A stretch of DNA of 64,000 bases from an uncultured bacterium (GTDB lineage: Bacteria; Cyanobacteriota; Vampirovibrionia; Gastranaerophilales; JAILCC01). The notes under the pieces were generated by a model. That model did not search any database. It worked only from the letters and a program-made list of their open reading frames with translations, and had not been told where the DNA came from. Positions within the stretch are counted from its first letter, which is position 1. Each line of letters opens with the position of its first letter. Below, one piece after another: positions 5,178-54,934 of the stretch. The DNA lies in the NCBI GenBank assembly GCA_949283935.1, contig CASDUJ010000009.1:1-64000 (forward strand), written 5' to 3'. A program made the translations under genes and the position numbers.

Positions 5178-5626
5178 TATATAACCTCAATTTTTCCGCC
5201 AGCTGCTTCAATTTTTTCTTTAGCTGATGAGCTAAAATGTCTTGCCCTAACGGTTTTTGCTGATTTTACTTCTCCATTGCCTAAAACTCTCAATACTTGA
5301 GAAATTCTTGGGGCATATCCAAGTTCTTTCAACAAATCTAAATCGATTATTTCTGCATCAATTTTGTCTAATTTTGAAACATTTAATTCATATTTGTTAG
5401 TTTTGTTAACAAGTTCAAAGCCCTTTAGCTTGGGAGCTCTTCTGTAAGCAGGCATTTGTCCGCCTTCAAAACCTCTTTTTTGGCTTCTGCCTGAACGTTG
5501 TCCTTCTCCATTGTGACCTCTTGTACTTGTTTTTCCATGACCTGAAGCACGACCTCTTCCTACACGTTTTTCACTATGTGTGGCACCGTCTGCAGGTTTT
5601 AAGTCAGTTAATTTTATTCTTTCCAT
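5177..5626 (-). CDS. rplO: 50S ribosomal protein L15
   Basis: Large-subunit protein that contacts 23S rRNA late in assembly. The 149 residues begin MERIKLTDLKPADG and carry the Gly/Arg-rich N-terminal tail RVGRGRASGHGKTSTRGHNG, then the globular domain ending in AGGKIEVI. The start is an ATG with AGAGG upstream. It lies 14 bases downstream of rpmD and overlaps secY by one base, the usual rpmD-rplO-secY order. Confidence 0.96.
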   Translation of the reverse strand: MERIKLTDLKPADGATHSEKRVGRGRASGHGKTSTRGHNGEGQRSGRSQKRGFEGGQMPAYRRAPKLKGFELVNKTNKYELNVSKLDKIDAEIIDLDLLKELGYAPRISQVLRVLGNGEVKSAKTVRARHFSSSAKEKIEAAGGKIEVI

Positions 5627-5640
5627 TTTTTGCCTCTTTT

Positions 5641-13021: not shown

Positions 13022-14306
13022 TGATTCTTAACTCCGATTTAATATCATTCAAAATATTTTTTGCGGCATAATTGTCTTTTAACTGTAATTCTTTTAATGC
13101 TATAATCCTTTTTTCTTCTAAATAATCTTTATTTTTAACAACAACTTCATCCAAGGTTTTTGCTAGGTCACTTTGGTTCCAAACTCTATAATATGTACTT
13201 ATGATTTTTTTTACTGATGCGTTATATTCAATTGCACGCTCGGAACAAAGATGTATTACAGGTTTGCCTGTCATAAAATATTCTGTTAAAAATGAACCGC
13301 AATCAGTAATCAAAACTTTTGATTGTATAAATAAATCTAAGTAATCTCCTGTTTCGCAAATTTGCCCGATTCCTTCCCATTCTTTAAAATATTTTTCTGC
13401 AAAATTTGTAGAATATATTCTCTTTAAATTTTCTCTGAAACATGGATGTGGCTTGAAAATCCATTTTTTTTCAGGATGTTGTTTGGCATATTCAAGTATA
13501 AATTCTCCATTCCAAGCAAACGTTCCCCATTTTAGTAAATTGTTATTATCAATTGTCCAATGTGGAGCATAAATTATATATTCTTCATTATTTTTTTCTT
13601 GAAATTTTTTTAAATAAAAATAGTCAAGTTGCGGATGTCCTACAGCTTTTAAATTTTTACCCTTATTGGGCATTTTTTGTGAAAAGGTTTTTTTTATAAA
13701 ATCATTTAACACATAATGAGTTTCAATATATTGATGAAAACGTAAATAATATTCATTTTCTCCTTCGGATGTTGCTATAAAATAAGGCACATAATATGTT
13801 AGGGCAAATTCGGAGCAAACTACAGGCCCTTGAGAAGTTTCAACATAAAAAGGATGCTGATAAAAAATAATATCAGGATTAAATTCTTTTAGAGGAATGA
13901 ATTTATCATTTTTTATATCATATGCTAGTTCAACATTCATTTTTTTGTTTTTGAAAAAATTATATGTTTTGTTTATTTCAAATAAATTTTGATAATTAAA
14001 ATTGGATTGTGGTGCGCAGTTTTTGGTTACAACAATCAAAGGATTAAAATGTTTATCTTGTTCCATTAATTCATAAAGACTTTGGCATTTCCATTTTGTA
14101 TTATCATATATGTAAAAAATTACTTTTAAAGGACGCGAATTTACAATTTTTTTTACTCTTTGCAAAACTTTTTTTCTGTTCTGTTTTATATAATTACAAT
14201 TATGTTTTATTCTTAATTTTTCAAAAAAATTTCTAATAAATTTTTTCATTTGGTATGGTAAAAAAAGAACAATGGTATCTCCCATTTTTTTGTATGGAAT
14301 ATTCAT
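13014..14306 (-). CDS. CDP-glycerol glycerophosphotransferase-like (TagB/TagF family) protein
   Basis: 430 residues with the C-terminal domain of the TagB/TagF family: GHPQLDYF, IIYAPHWTIDNNN, KKWIFKPHPCFREN, and the DCGSFLTEYFMTGKPVIHL donor-binding segment near 340-360. Members transfer glycerol-phosphate or ribitol-phosphate from CDP-alditols, or act as related glycosyltransferases in capsule and teichoic-acid-like polymers. The N-terminal 110 residues are basic and may bind the membrane face. It starts directly after the 14307-14708 stop (TAA then ATG) and overlaps the GT2, so the three genes form one unit. Substrate is inferred from family only. Confidence 0.75.
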   Translation of the reverse strand: MNIPYKKMGDTIVLFLPYQMKKFIRNFFEKLRIKHNCNYIKQNRKKVLQRVKKIVNSRPLKVIFYIYDNTKWKCQSLYELMEQDKHFNPLIVVTKNCAPQSNFNYQNLFEINKTYNFFKNKKMNVELAYDIKNDKFIPLKEFNPDIIFYQHPFYVETSQGPVVCSEFALTYYVPYFIATSEGENEYYLRFHQYIETHYVLNDFIKKTFSQKMPNKGKNLKAVGHPQLDYFYLKKFQEKNNEEYIIYAPHWTIDNNNLLKWGTFAWNGEFILEYAKQHPEKKWIFKPHPCFRENLKRIYSTNFAEKYFKEWEGIGQICETGDYLDLFIQSKVLITDCGSFLTEYFMTGKPVIHLCSERAIEYNASVKKIISTYYRVWNQSDLAKTLDEVVVKNKDYLEEKRIIALKELQLKDNYAAKNILNDIKSELRINE

Positions 14307-14708
14307 TTAATTACACCATATTTCTTTTAACAATTTAAAAATAGGAGCTTTAACTAAAGGAATTATTTTTATTTTTTCATTTTTGAAATCATTACAAATA
14401 AAATTCTCTATAATATTCATATACTTCAAAGTAGCTATTAATAAATAATCAGGTTTATATGAAATAATTTTATTTTTGGGAATAATTTTATATCCGGAAT
14501 AAATTTGTCCTTCTTGTTCTATGGTGTATTTAATATCAGAAATACCAGTAATGTTTAATGAATGTAAATCATAATGCTTGTTTATAAAATCAAAAAGGGA
14601 GCCTGTTCCATATATTATAATTTTTTTATCTTTTAATTTGTTTTTTAATTTAGTAAAATATTTTTCAAAATGAATTTCTTCTAAATATCTCTCTATCGAA
14701 TTATCCAT
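14307..14708 (-). CDS. Small Rossmann-like protein, paralogous to the LicD N-terminal domain
   Basis: 133 residues. A nucleotide-binding beta-alpha-beta start (KKIIIYGTGSLFDFI) is followed by ITGISDIKY, GYKIIPKNKI and KPDYLLIATLK, the layout of the N-terminal domains of PglD-like and sugar-nucleotide enzymes. The same pattern ([32 protein letters not shown], then a hydrophobic xPxxxxIKxL tail) occupies the first 130 residues of the divergent licD gene next door. The protein may be a free-standing helper or a split-off domain. A TAGGAGAC site precedes the ATG. No catalytic function can be assigned. Confidence 0.75.
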   Translation of the reverse strand: MDNSIERYLEEIHFEKYFTKLKNKLKDKKIIIYGTGSLFDFINKHYDLHSLNITGISDIKYTIEQEGQIYSGYKIIPKNKIISYKPDYLLIATLKYMNIIENFICNDFKNEKIKIIPLVKAPIFKLLKEIWCN

Positions 14709-14764
14709 AACTGTCTCCTAATATCCCAATAATAGCAAAACTACTAACTTTTAACAAGTTTATG

Positions 14765-14793
14765 TTGTATTTAAAATTGCTATGTCTTATAAT
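14765..14793 (+). promoter_or_regulatory. Promoter of the licD gene
   Basis: TTGTAT (14765-14770), 17 bases, then a consensus TATAAT (14788-14793). The ATG of licD follows at 14824, so the leader would be about 23 bases. Confidence 0.7.
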
Positions 14794-14823
14794 CTAAGCA
14801 TCTTTTAGTAAAGAGAAAAAATA

Positions 14824-16128
14824 ATGGATTTTAAAAAATATTTCAAAAAAATTAATGCGCAAAAACAAATTGATACTTTAGCTAAAAAATTTGCAAATAA
14901 ACGAATTATAATTTACGGTGCCGGTTTATATACACAAGAATTATTTAAAATTTGTAATTTGACAAAATTAAATATTATTGCAGTTTGTGACAAAAAATTT
15001 AATGACAATAAAGAAGAGAAATTTTTTATACACAGAACAATATCTCCTAAAATGCTGGAAATAGAAAAATTTGATATATTGCTAATTTCACTTTTTGAAT
15101 CCGGTAATCTCATTTATGATTTGAAATATAAGAAATTAATTGGAACATATAATGAAGATGTTTTGGTGCAAAATATACTCCATGAACCCGTTTGGTATGT
15201 AATAAAAGTTTTGTTTCAGCAACCTAATTTTAAAAAGATAAGAAAATTTTTGAAAAATAAATTTCAGAATAAATCCTCATTATATTTGAAATTGTACAAA
15301 GAAGCTGCTAAAGAACTAAAATTTCTAAAATCAGTGATAAATCCTCAATATTTAAAACCTGCTACAGGAGAGATTAGAAATTTTCAAATTAAGACTTTCA
15401 AATTTTGTTATGCTATTATTGAACAACTCGAAAAAGCTAATATAAACTATTTTCTTACCTGTGGTTCACTTTTGGGAGCTATTAGGCATAAAGGTTTTAT
15501 TCCTTGGGATGATGATTTTGATATAGGGATGATGAGAGAAGATTATGAGAAAACTATAAAATTTTGCAGACAAAATTTTGTGGAACTTAATGTTGCTGAA
15601 GTTTCTGGATCTGTACAAAATCTTTATGAAATTTGGCAAGAATATTTTATTAAATATCCAAATCAAATTCTTTTTACTATTTCGCATTCTCATATCCAAA
15701 TTTTTAGAGGAACAAGTCTTGATGATTATGAAAGTCTAGATATTTTTTCCCATGACTTTTATGCAGAAAATTATGATTGTCAAACACATAAAAAATATTT
15801 GCTGCAAATCAATTTAGCTAAAAATAAAATAAATAATTGGCAGAAAAAATATGAATTTTTGAAAATAGAAAGGGCAAAAAATTCTAATATAGTAGAAAAA
15901 AGTAATAAAATATATTATGGAATAGATAGTTGGCTTTCTTATTTTTTTAATATGCGCAACTTTTTTACATACGATATGATTTTTCCTCTTAACAAACTTG
16001 AATTTGAAGGAAAAATATTAAATGTTCCTAATGATTTTGTTTCTTATATGAATTTACAATATGAAAATTTTATGGAAATGCCAGAGGATATAAGATTTTT
16101 GCACCATAGGAATGTAAGAAAACAATAG
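14824..16128 (+). CDS. LicD-family phosphotransferase with N-terminal Rossmann-like domain
   Basis: 434 residues. Residues 1-130 are Rossmann-like (RIIIYGAG at 27-34). The LicD domain starts near 185 with the nucleotidyltransferase-fold signature [14 protein letters not shown] at 211-224 and [12 protein letters not shown] at 226-237, whose Asp residues bind metal. LicD proteins attach phosphocholine or related phospho-alditols to surface glycans, using CDP-activated donors. The gene has a good promoter and is divergent from the TagF-like operon. No choline kinase or CTP:phosphocholine cytidylyltransferase lies nearby, so the donor is unknown. Confidence 0.85.
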
Positions 16129-16204
16129 TATTCTATTAAGTTTTGTAAATTTTTTTTAAAAGAATGCACTCCCGGCTTAATAATTGTTTTTATTAATATA
16201 TAAA

Positions 16205-16307
16205 ACAAAGAGAAAACGAAATAAATTGAGATATACTACCTACCTTACCTTACCCTTAAACTTTGAGAGTTTACTCAAAGATTGCCCCTGAAAAGGGGAT
16301 TTTTTTT
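16205..16307 (+). ncRNA. Candidate small RNA with C-rich repeat segment and GAAA-loop terminator
   Basis: No gene occupies 16129-16362. The region holds an open, pyrimidine-rich segment of four CCs in TACC/TTACC repeats (16236-16255), a perfect 7-bp hairpin (CTTTGAG/CTCAAAG, 16261-16280) and a terminator with a GAAA tetraloop. A weak upstream promoter (TTAATA at 16177, TATAAA at 16199) or a TATACT at 16232 could start it. The C-rich part is complementary to Shine-Dalgarno-like AAGG sequences. It could also be just the licD 3' untranslated region. I do not recognise a known family. Confidence 0.4.
16285..16307 (+). terminator. Intrinsic terminator downstream of licD / candidate small RNA
   Basis: CCCCT, loop GAAA, AGGGG (16285-16298) followed by A and eight Ts (16300-16307). 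Short but G+C-strong stem with a stable GNRA loop. Confidence 0.75.
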
Positions 16308-16311
16308 GTTT

Positions 16312-16344
16312 AAAAAGGCAAAAGAGAAATTCTTTTGCCTTTTT
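16312..16344 (-). terminator. Terminator of the rubrerythrin gene
   Basis: Perfect 14-bp inverted repeat AAAAAGGCAAAAGA / TCTTTTGCCTTTTT with a five-base loop, flanked by A and T runs so that it works in both directions. It lies 18 bases after the rubrerythrin stop. Confidence 0.85.
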
Positions 16345-16362
16345 ATTTTGTTTCAATTCAAA

Positions 16363-16902
16363 TTAATTAAAGTAACGTTTTAATAATCCATCAAAACCTG
16401 AACCATGTCTAGCTTCATCTTTTGCCATTTCATGTACTGTGTCATGGATAGCATCATAGCCAAGCTCTTTTGCGCGTTTTGCTATTGCTAATTTTCCTTC
16501 ACATGCGCCATGTTCAGCATCAGCTCTTAGTTCTAAATTTTTCTTAGTTGAATTAGTTACTACTTCTCCTAATAATTCGGCAAATTTAGCTGCATGTTCC
16601 GCTTCTTCAAATGCATATCTTTTATATGCTTCGGCAATTTCAGGATATCCTTCTCTTTCGGCTACTCTTGACATAGCCAAATACATACCTACTTCACAAC
16701 ATTCTCCATTAAAATGTGCCCTTAAACCTTCCATAATTTCTTTATCTTCTACAATGCCATCTCCTACATTGTGTTGGCAGGCATAAACTTTAGCCCCTTC
16801 TTTTACTATTGTAAAAGCCGTTGCTCCACACAAAGGACATTTCTCAGGTTGTGTATCTGTTTCTATAGACCAGCCACAAGCTTTGCATACATATTTTGTC
16901 AT
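16363..16902 (-). CDS. rbr: Reverse rubrerythrin (N-terminal rubredoxin, C-terminal diiron domain)
   Basis: Peroxide-reducing, oxygen-stress protein of anaerobes. The 179 residues carry the rubredoxin-type iron site first (C6-x2-C9 and C22-x2-C25), then a ferritin-like four-helix diiron domain with E-x2-H pairs ([40 protein letters not shown]). This order is the reverse of classical rubrerythrin and matches the clostridial reverse form that works with NAD(P)H:rubredoxin oxidoreductases. It is monocistronic, with AGAGGTG before the ATG and its own terminator. Confidence 0.93.
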
Positions 16903-17076
16903 CTTACACCTCTTTCTTATTGTTTCTTAACCTCTTATTAAGAATAATTCCTATTTACTATTTTCCATATATATATTTTTTTGTCAAGAAAATTTTACGA
17001 ACAAATTAATTTTATTCCTAATGATTATATTTTAAATATTTACTTTTTGTGTTAATATATCTTTGATTGAAAAATC

Positions 17077-17167
17077 GGAAGATCGATGCGGCAAAAGCCG
17101 GTGAACCATGTCAGGACGGGAACGTAGCAGCATTAAGCCTTAAACTTTTGGGTGTGTCGGTCTTTCT
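17077..17167 (+). ncRNA. ffs: Signal recognition particle RNA, small bacterial type
   Basis: The domain IV core tcaggacgggaacgtagcag (17111-17130) has the GGAA tetraloop, closing helix and the asymmetric AGCA internal loop that Ffh binds. The ends pair over 11 bp: AAGATCGATGC (17079-17089) with the GTGTGTCGGTCTT segment near 17153-17164, with G-U pairs. A T-rich run follows. About 90 nt, no Alu domain, so the 4.5S class. It lies 16 bases upstream of the thioesterase gene. Confidence 0.92.
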
Positions 17168-17182
17168 TTTTAGGAGAGGTTT

Positions 17183-17590
17183 ATGAAGCATTTATATGAA
17201 GTAAAAGTTTACCATGCAGATACGGATTGTTATGGAATTGTTTGGCATGGCACTTATTTAAGATTTTGTGAGCAAGCAAGATGTGAATTTGCCGCTGCAA
17301 CAAATAAATCAATGAAATATCTTGAAAATAAAGGTATTTGTACTCCTTTGGTTGAAGCAAATATTAAGTATAAACATTCTGCAAAAGTTCATGATGTTTT
17401 GATTATAGAAACTATTGTTGATAAATTAACTCCTTTAAGAGCCGAAATGTTGCAAAAAATTAAAAATAAAGAAACTAATCAAGAAGTAGCAGAAGTTCGT
17501 GTAACTTTTGTTTGTACAGACAAAGAAGGTAATTTATACAGAAAAATGCCTCAAGAAATGTTTGATATGCTGAAAAGTTTGCAAAATTAG
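17183..17590 (+). CDS. ybgC: Hot-dog fold acyl-CoA thioesterase, YbgC type
   Basis: 135 residues of the 4-hydroxybenzoyl-CoA thioesterase family: VKVYHADTDCYGIVWHGTYL with the catalytic Asp, then FCEQARCEF, and a hot-dog core of about 130 residues. It hydrolyses acyl-CoA or acyl-ACP; YbgC elsewhere associates with the Tol-Pal system, which is not here. TAGGAGAG precedes the ATG, and it follows ffs closely. Its TAG shares three bases with the convergent decarboxylase stop. Substrate is not predictable. Confidence 0.88.
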   Translation: MKHLYEVKVYHADTDCYGIVWHGTYLRFCEQARCEFAAATNKSMKYLENKGICTPLVEANIKYKHSAKVHDVLIIETIVDKLTPLRAEMLQKIKNKETNQEVAEVRVTFVCTDKEGNLYRKMPQEMFDMLKSLQN

Positions 17591-19047
17591 TCTTCTTTAA
17601 CTACTTTTAATGTTTTATAATTAACCAAATAAGGTAAATGTTCTTTTTTAATAATTTCTCCAGGGGTTAGCACAAAAATACCTGGGGGACATTCAGCTAT
17701 TAAATCGGCACTAATTTTTCCTACTGCTTTGTTTGTTTCAATAATTTCAAATCCTTTGTAGAAAGCTTCTTTCGGAGATATTTTTATTTCGGGATTTAAA
17801 AGAGGCATAAATTTGTAATTTTCTAAATGTGAAATGTCTGCATAATTTTGTGAAGCTATATCTTTTATTGCATTAACGAGTATTTTAACATCATCAAAAT
17901 TACTTCCAATATTTGATAAAATTAGAATGCCATTATCTGTAGAAGCTTCAATTTCAATATTGTAATCAGTTTTTAAAATATTTTCTATTCTTCTTCCGCA
18001 AAGATTTTTTATCATAATGTAAACTCTTGCTGGATCAAGTTTGAAGCCATCTTGTTCGGTTAATACAAGAACTTTTGGAAAATTTTTTAATTCATTTTTT
18101 ATATAATTGGCAAATTGTATAGCTTTTTCTATGTTCTCTTTACCTTCAATACTTTGTAAATAAGCTCTTGCTGCATCAAGACTGGCTAAAAGAGTAACAG
18201 AAGGACTTGTTGTGTGCAAAAGTCTCAAATTATTTTCTATTATTTTTTCAGAAATTTTTGAAGAATGTGAAATACTTAAAATGGAGCTTTGTGAAAAACT
18301 TCCTCCGGTTTTATGCATAGAATGTACAACCACATCAGCTCCAAGTTGTAAGGCGCTTGTTGGCATTTTGTCTGAAAAATTCCATAAGGCTCCATGAGCT
18401 TCATCAACAGCTAAAATGACGTTATGCTTTTTGCAAATTTCAGCGATTGCTCTAATATCGCTTACAACACCTTCATAAGTTGGACTTGTAATCCATACCA
18501 TTGATGTAGTTGGGTTTTTTTTAAGTTCTTTTTCTATAACATAAGGAGAAATTTCTCCCCAAATACTCCAATCTTCGTGTTTTTGAGGATTAATCCATAT
18601 AGGATTTGCTCCCGTCATAATTAATCCTGTTATGACAGATCTGTGACAATTTCTTCCAATAATTACGTTAGAATTAGGTTTTAAACAAGTTAAAGCGATA
18701 GCAAAATTCCCTATGGATGAGCCATTTAGTAAAAAATAAGAATTTTTAGCATTTAAAGCTTGCGCCATAAGTTCTTGAGCTTTTTTTACAGGACCTGTAG
18801 CCGGATGTAAAGTTCCAAAACTATTAAATTCATCAGTATTGTCTAAAAGAGCACCTTTTTCCAATAGTTTTTTAAATCTATTTAATAATCCGGAACCTTT
18901 TGTGTGTCCGGGAATATGGAATTGAATGGGGGGATTAAGAAGATTTTTTTCCAAAGCATCAACAAGTGGAGCTTCAATATTTTGCTCTACAAGAAACAAA
19001 TTTTGTTTGCTTTTGTTACTAAGGAATTTTTGAGAAAATTCTTCCAA
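17587..19047 (-). CDS. Orn/Lys/Arg decarboxylase family protein
   Basis: PLP-dependent fold-I decarboxylase, 486 residues, the short form without the N-terminal response-regulator-like wing domain. Motifs: FHIPGHTKGSGLL, DNTDEFNSFGTLHPATGPV, NGSSIGNFA, VDEAHGALWNF and the PLP-lysine segment HSMHKTGGSFSQSS. In cyanobacteria and firmicutes such proteins act as arginine or lysine decarboxylases for polyamine synthesis; which one cannot be read. Start is TTG at 19045-19047 with AGGGG 8 bases upstream. The stop overlaps the thioesterase stop (TTAG). Confidence 0.87.
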   Translation of the reverse strand: MEEFSQKFLSNKSKQNLFLVEQNIEAPLVDALEKNLLNPPIQFHIPGHTKGSGLLNRFKKLLEKGALLDNTDEFNSFGTLHPATGPVKKAQELMAQALNAKNSYFLLNGSSIGNFAIALTCLKPNSNVIIGRNCHRSVITGLIMTGANPIWINPQKHEDWSIWGEISPYVIEKELKKNPTTSMVWITSPTYEGVVSDIRAIAEICKKHNVILAVDEAHGALWNFSDKMPTSALQLGADVVVHSMHKTGGSFSQSSILSISHSSKISEKIIENNLRLLHTTSPSVTLLASLDAARAYLQSIEGKENIEKAIQFANYIKNELKNFPKVLVLTEQDGFKLDPARVYIMIKNLCGRRIENILKTDYNIEIEASTDNGILILSNIGSNFDDVKILVNAIKDIASQNYADISHLENYKFMPLLNPEIKISPKEAFYKGFEIIETNKAVGKISADLIAECPPGIFVLTPGEIIKKEHLPYLVNYKTLKVVKED

Positions 19048-33677: not shown

Positions 33678-33751
33678 GTCCACGTAGTTCAGCAGGATAG
33701 AACGTCATCCTCCTAAGATGAATGTCGTGGGTTCGAATCCCGCCGTGGACA
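33678..33751 (+). tRNA. tRNA-Arg (anticodon CCT)
   Basis: Complete cloverleaf: 7-bp acceptor stem GTCCACG/CGTGGAC, D stem GTTC/GAAC, anticodon stem TCATC/GATGA with loop CTCCTAA (anticodon CCT at 34-36), a five-base variable loop, T stem GTGGG/CCCGC with TTCGAAT loop, discriminator A at 33751. CCA is not encoded. It decodes AGG. Confidence 0.96.
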
Positions 33752-54574: not shown

Positions 54575-54934
54575 ATGAATTTAACAGGTTATGGCATATT
54601 GTTCATTTTTGTTATATTGTCTTTGCTTTTTGCTGTGGCAATGCTTGTAACTGCATATATAGTTCAGCCAAAATACAAAAGAGAAATTAAATTTCAAACA
54701 TATGAATGTGGTTTAAATCCTAATCAGTCTGCGAGAATTAAATTCGATGTAAAATGTTATATTTTTGCTATTTTGTTTTTATTGTTTGATGTTGAAACGA
54801 TTTTCCTTTTTCCTTGGGCAGTTATATACAATAAAATAGGCTTATTTGCACTTTTAGAAGGTATTTTGTTTATACTTGTTTTAGGGATTGGATTATTTTA
54901 TGCAATAAAACGAAAACTTTTGGAGTGGCAATGA
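54575..54934 (+). CDS. nuoA: Complex I subunit A (NuoA/NdhC)
   Basis: Small membrane subunit of the proton-pumping quinone reductase. 119 residues with three membrane segments and the loop [20 protein letters not shown], the conserved segment around the Cys and Asp residues of this subunit. Start ATG at 54575 with GGGAG upstream; the in-frame ATG at 54539 is not favoured. The stop overlaps the ATG of nuoB by four bases. First gene of an operon of eleven in the order A-B-C-D-H-I-J-K-L-M-N. Confidence 0.95.

Follow-up and report, generated by a model that had tools for sequence, protein, structure and literature searches.

The interval between a licD-like open reading frame and a converging rubrerythrin gene raises the question of whether it holds an RNA gene of its own and, if so, how an RNA with an unpaired C-rich segment might act. 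The window analysed here is a 64,000-nucleotide stretch of contig C9 of an uncultured Gastranaerophilales genome (G000; 1.73 Mb, 42 contigs). The licD-like frame ends at 16128, 57 nt before the GTTTTTAT block, and the rubrerythrin gene lies on the opposite strand at 16363-16902, converging on the following features.

16136-16149, plus strand: upstream box TTAAGTTTTGTAAA, from sequence comparison.
16186-16205, plus strand: promoter-like block GTTTTTATTAATATATAAAA, with a probable start site at about 16207-16212.
16209-16235, plus strand: A-rich leader of the putative RNA, its start estimated.
16231-16258, plus strand: 28-nt block ATATACTACCTACCTTACCTTACCCTTA, a G-free C/U-rich tract with an AU flank, identical in G000 and two relatives (G001, G002).
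16261-16280, plus strand: perfect 7-bp hairpin, from sequence and fold (CTTTGAG 16261-16267, loop AGTTTA, CTCAAAG 16274-16280).
16285-16307, plus strand: rho-independent terminator, from the sequence (CCCCT-GAAA-AGGGG 16285-16298, A, T8 16300-16307).
16311-16345, strand not assigned: second terminator-like hairpin from a terminator scan, which most likely serves the convergent rubrerythrin gene.

Direct reading of the sequence places the C-rich segment CTACCTACCTTACCTTACCC at 16236-16255, and the tract reads CUACCUACCUUACCUUACCCUUA. The coordinates that an earlier sequence-only reading of the locus had given for this segment, the 7-bp hairpin and the terminator are correct to the base. RNA folding forms the two hairpins and leaves the leader and the C-rich tract open in the centroid structure, with a fold energy of z = -2.19 relative to shuffles and equally good folds in 4 of 200 of them. 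The region 16050-16420 contains 2 terminator-like sites, compared with 0.1 in shuffled sequence. We consider 16186-16307 very likely to be a small RNA gene, whose transcript would extend from the putative start to 16307; the earlier proposal of a free-standing gene for a small RNA, with a C-rich segment that is unpaired and conserved, is supported as sequence anatomy. Boxes resembling TTAAGTTTTGTAAA occur upstream in two relatives of family f1 and elsewhere in several genomes, with short BLAST matches in G001, G006, G014, G019, G022, G023 and G033, and may be the site of a regulator.

BLAST of 16050-16420 against 40 relatives revealed the element in G001 and G002, which belong to other genera of the same family. 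The 28 nt of ATATACTACCTACCTTACCTTACCCTTA are identical (28/28) across the three genera; the sequence-only reading had named lack of conservation of the C-rich segment in close relatives as refuting its proposal, and this check did not refute it. The loci are unrelated: the G001 copy adjoins an open reading frame read as glycogen synthase and the G002 copy adjoins frames read as dnaK and a helicase, all named by reading of the frames. Such identity in two further genera, at unrelated loci, shows that the element is not a product of chance. The leader, the hairpin loop and the terminator stem vary among the three copies with pairing retained, and the 7-bp hairpin differs among relatives in both sequence and register. 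Genomes of other families (G011, G005, G019, G023 and G025) display the same design with more units, including a run of CCTTA-like units of ~90 nt in G019; in family f4 the unit number ranges from about 3 to >15 while the unit itself is retained. Scanning a collection of 84,980 species for the promoter block followed after a gap of 31-61 nt by TACCTTACCTTAC returned 6 matches, all in the same relatives.

Sequence profiles extend the family well beyond these genomes. A model built from 8 members (R1) detects diverged, multicopy and tandem members across families of Gastranaerophilales, with tandem pairs of RNA genes in G009, G014 and G027 and several in G016. At E<=0.001, a second model built from 29 members (R2) matches 357 of 367 Gastranaerophilales genomes and all 50 genera, a count that includes weak or promoter-only matches; E-values of both models are rough, and the R2 training set overlaps the genomes later matched. 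Copy numbers from R2 are lower bounds, as 7 candidates were scored per genome. Among 292 genomes sampled from the phylum, R2 matches 128 of the 131 within the order, with promoter-only matches such as G060:C3:13724-13786 in the sample, and 0 of 161 Cyanobacteriota genomes outside it, of which 5 belong to the same class and 144 are counted as outside by their list position. All 40 matches that were fetched, chosen from the better-scoring ones, have a promoter block, leader, G-poor tract and terminator as judged by eye. A C-rich, G-poor tract precedes the terminator in 62 of 69 catalogue members; of 99 other terminators in 800 kb, 3 have such a tract, all of which turn out to be family members. 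Several first-pass matches are non-members: those in G139, G168 and G177 have the repeat without the RNA anatomy, those in G258 and G268 are coding-like, and those in G007, G016:C17, G022, G038, G039:C14 and G011:C81 were rejected on reading. A dedicated promoter regulon is ruled out, since protein genes, too, are preceded by the GTTTTTAT block.

The window's own genome has at least five candidate members, every tract being different. Besides the window gene (E = 7e-12) there is a second strong member at C2:9876-10021 and three weaker ones with matching anatomy by eye (C4:62999-63158, C28:8457-8628 and C21:65538-65653). Tracts diverge between families as well as between paralogues, and in family f2 about 30 nt are conserved across many species. 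The dominant f2 form ends in CACUACCUACUACACACUAACCUUCUACACACGAGGAAUU, the hairpin and the terminator, and a second form carries CUAACUUCCUAACCUUCCCUUCCUA. Covariation of the two hairpins, a check suggested with the sequence-only reading, gives a divided answer in an alignment of 29 f2 members that keeps near-identical copies as separate rows. The terminator helix has two-sided changes in 7 of 8 pairs, whereas the first hairpin is 97.7% paired with zero two-sided changes, so that covariation speaks neither for nor against it; for the two helices jointly, the score is reached by 0 of 500 shuffles. In f2 members L198-L225, the C-rich tract is followed directly by an invariant GAGGAA that makes up the 5' arm of the first hairpin. 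This motif is itself Shine-Dalgarno-like, and an RNAalifold alternative pairs it with CCUU of the tract.

No Rfam family, Yfr1 included, matches the RNA gene in 14000-19000 of the window (E<=5) or its counterparts at 12 other member loci (E<=1). Elsewhere in the window, a bacterial small SRP RNA lies at 17075-17171 on the plus strand (Rfam RF00169, 56.1 bits) and a tRNA at 33678-33751. Judged by its sequences, this looks like a new family among the C-rich small RNAs, themselves a known kind, and an unusual one in its unit expansion and order-wide multicopy spread. Its closest parallel in a sister lineage is described in two papers: Yfr1 is an RNA of 54-69 nt with two stem-loops flanking ACUCCUCACAC (PMC2190773), which pairs by a seed at mRNA 5' regions and takes part in the Yfr1/Yfr2 RNA-RNA pair (PMC6778093). 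With Yfr1 and Yfr10, the family shares a short RNA, an unpaired conserved C-rich segment, a terminator and an order- or phylum-wide distribution (PMC2190773, PMC6778093), and the seed proposed below is likened to that of Yfr1. The 3' GC-rich terminator hairpin of Yfr1 also has its equivalent here, at 16285-16307. The sequence-only reading nevertheless held the RNA to be distinct from Yfr1, and rightly so: the window tract has no ACUCCUCACAC, there is no 5' stem-loop, leader and tract being unpaired in the centroid fold, and, in contrast to Yfr1, members are about 95-150 nt long, multicopy with diverging tracts, and absent from the sampled cyanobacteria.

Seed pairing through unpaired C-rich segments has several precedents (PMC6778093, PMC4132741, PMC3771888). 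LhrC1-5 of Listeria are multicopy and G-poor, with redundant CU-rich units and no requirement for Hfq (PMC4132741), so that the likeness is one of working style, not of sequence. The LhrC copies are nearly identical and their CUCCC units lie in loops and an unpaired stretch, whereas the five G000 candidates all have different tracts and the ACCUU/UACC units lie in one open tract. The redundant UCCC of LhrC is missing from the window tract, although 10 of the 24 tract clusters across the family contain UCCCU. The C-rich loops of sX13 of Xanthomonas act on 4G motifs independently of Hfq (PMC3771888), and RsaE is named among the C-rich-loop RNAs (PMC4132741). With this class, the family shares C-rich unpaired segments and an apparent Hfq independence; the C runs of sX13 lie in loops of stable stems, and here the tract is open and has no long C runs.

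The sequence-only reading had suggested that the repeated ACCTT units could pair with AAGG-type ribosome-binding sites of many mRNAs, and had proposed in silico pairing with such sites as a check. Taken generally, this would make the molecule an anti-Shine-Dalgarno RNA that damps the translation of many mRNAs. The Shine-Dalgarno sequence of G000 is the classical AGGAG, and pairing of the tract is indeed stronger at start regions (mean -5.07 kcal/mol) than inside genes (-2.51 kcal/mol), a preference that follows from its being C-rich. However, all 24 of 24 shuffled tracts pair better with start regions (mean -6.01 kcal/mol), and 7-mers of the window tract match 15 of 404 start regions versus a shuffle mean of 36, with 197 of 200 shuffles matching at least as many. 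Plain shuffles are an imperfect control because longer C runs arise in them; with C runs preserved, 189 of 200 shuffles still match at least as many start regions as the window tract, the same direction, and for the f2 tract in G063 the figure is 79 of 200, no difference. Unit counts are based on 24 clusters from 81 tracts, one of the 82 members having no tract under the rule applied; they reveal ACCTT in 11 of 24 clusters (4.0 expected), CCTTC and TCCCT in 10 of 24 each and enrichment of ACACA and CACAC, and CCTCC in 1 of 24. By energy and by exact 7/8-mers alike, the window tract scores lower than its shuffles, and from the shuffle tests together with the unit counts it follows that the RNA is no general anti-Shine-Dalgarno RNA, a role we regard as highly improbable.

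A search for individual partners yielded no convincing target. Allowing up to 3 mismatches (at least 17/20 complementary), a long target in G000-G003 is absent: the search returned only the RNA genes and one sibling RNA gene. Two other exact AAGGTAAGGTA sites, in G000 and G001, fall within the coding sequences of unrelated proteins and were set aside. Antisense matches of at least 10 nt number 3 in 400 kb of G000, compared with 6-45 in shuffles, and conserved sites in orthologue pairs (1/69, 1/68 and 1/46) are not above shuffles, in a search using crude gene calls and covering roughly between a fifth and a quarter of each genome. The best single target candidate in the sampled quarter of G000 would be a CDF-type cation transporter, named by reading of its frame, whose start region (G000:C6 about 54721-54731, minus strand) has 11 contiguous bases complementary to AUAUACUACCU, covering the Shine-Dalgarno sequence through the AUG. 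An orthologue of this transporter is absent from the sampled parts of G001 and G002.

With somewhat better than even confidence, and from sequence comparison, we propose that the gene encodes a stand-alone small RNA of ~95-100 nt, belonging to an order-wide multicopy family and acting in trans by a short selective seed. The G-poor tract would be kept single-stranded and expose a short seed of ACCUU/UACC/UCCC units, and this seed would pair with a restricted group of mRNAs at their G-rich start regions. Repetition of the units and divergence of the paralogues would increase the number of sites and of specificities, much as in Listeria LhrC and cyanobacterial Yfr1, and Shine-Dalgarno sequences would not be blocked indiscriminately. 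Less certainly, trans action would proceed without Hfq, which was detected in 0 of 40 genomes by a search whose matched controls include no cyanobacterium, so that a divergent Hfq could escape it.

The selective seed is favoured over its main rival, a protein-titrating sponge in which the C-dinucleotide units would bind a C/U-specific single-strand RNA-binding protein or nuclease, with copy number and unit number setting the titration capacity. Sponges of the CsrB/RsmZ type carry a variable count of a short repeated unit, GGA in loops, and the GGA repeats of CsrB are CsrA binding sites; the variable number of a short repeat is shared here, with a unit that is C-rich and unpaired instead of GGA in loops. 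Several features are consistent with a sponge: f4 members differ widely in unit number, from about 3 to >15, while retaining the unit, the tracts avoid start-region complementarity and the window tract is G-free and unstructured, and the genes are multicopy with a promoter block common to protein genes. Against this, a KhpA/B-type KH domain exceeds the cut-off in 0 of 30 genomes, as does Hfq in 0 of 40, and the weak KH matches sit in long frames, mostly of about 510-530 aa, the size of RNase Y. The exact conservation of 28 nt in f1 genera and of ~30 nt in many f2 species also exceeds what a short protein motif needs. We regard a sponge as possible, though on the unlikely side.

A partner that is mainly another RNA, as in the Yfr1/Yfr2 pair, appears improbable. 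It is suggested by a mirror gene in G016 (L132 about 292-430; G016:C42 about 5491-5630, plus strand) in which a promoter block, a purine-rich C-poor tract and a terminator follow one another, the tract being complementary to that genome's own C-tract RNAs; its duplexes reach -34.7, -40.4, -29.4 and -28.4 kcal/mol, matched by 0, 0, 2 and 2 of 100 shuffles. This gene was noticed post hoc in one genome only, and no purine complement to the window tract occurs in G000-G003. A broader and rather speculative reading joins these two alternatives: the G-free RNAs with ACCUU units might be the variable-valence platform of a dedicated multicopy post-transcriptional system in the apparently Hfq-less Gastranaerophilales, either as a sponge for a putative C/U-specific protein or as one half of a C-tract/purine-tract RNA pair. 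If so, the system would have arisen in Gastranaerophilales, with no counterpart in the sampled photosynthetic cyanobacteria. Least credible of all is an element that does not act in trans, namely an untranslated leader or attenuator, the 3' end of the licD mRNA, or a DNA element. What speaks for it is that some f2 genomes carry pentanucleotide repeats of related sequence, as DNA, ahead of genes; what speaks against it is that the gene's own promoter block and its terminator are both conserved where the loci are unrelated. Among 36 members the downstream gene lies on the same strand in 18 and on the opposite strand in 18, and therefore the RNA is no leader or attenuator.

The family would, to our knowledge, be the first of small RNAs described for gut Melainabacteria; no report on small RNAs of Gastranaerophilales was found in a search of open-access papers. 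Near-universal in the order, it would mark an ancestral regulator in bacteria for which genetic tools are scarce or lacking, and it permits a comparison of Yfr1 with whatever replaces it in the non-photosynthetic sister lineage. It offers a probe, a pull-down bait and natural tract variants, including unit expansions, that could separate seed pairing from protein titration.

The f2 repeats are a separate observation. At loci L114, L116, L025, L023 and L024, tandem (TATGG)n, (ATAGG)n and (TAAGG)n lie upstream of protein genes, at L114, L116 and L025 directly upstream of a promoter-like block, and are possibly arrays of binding sites.
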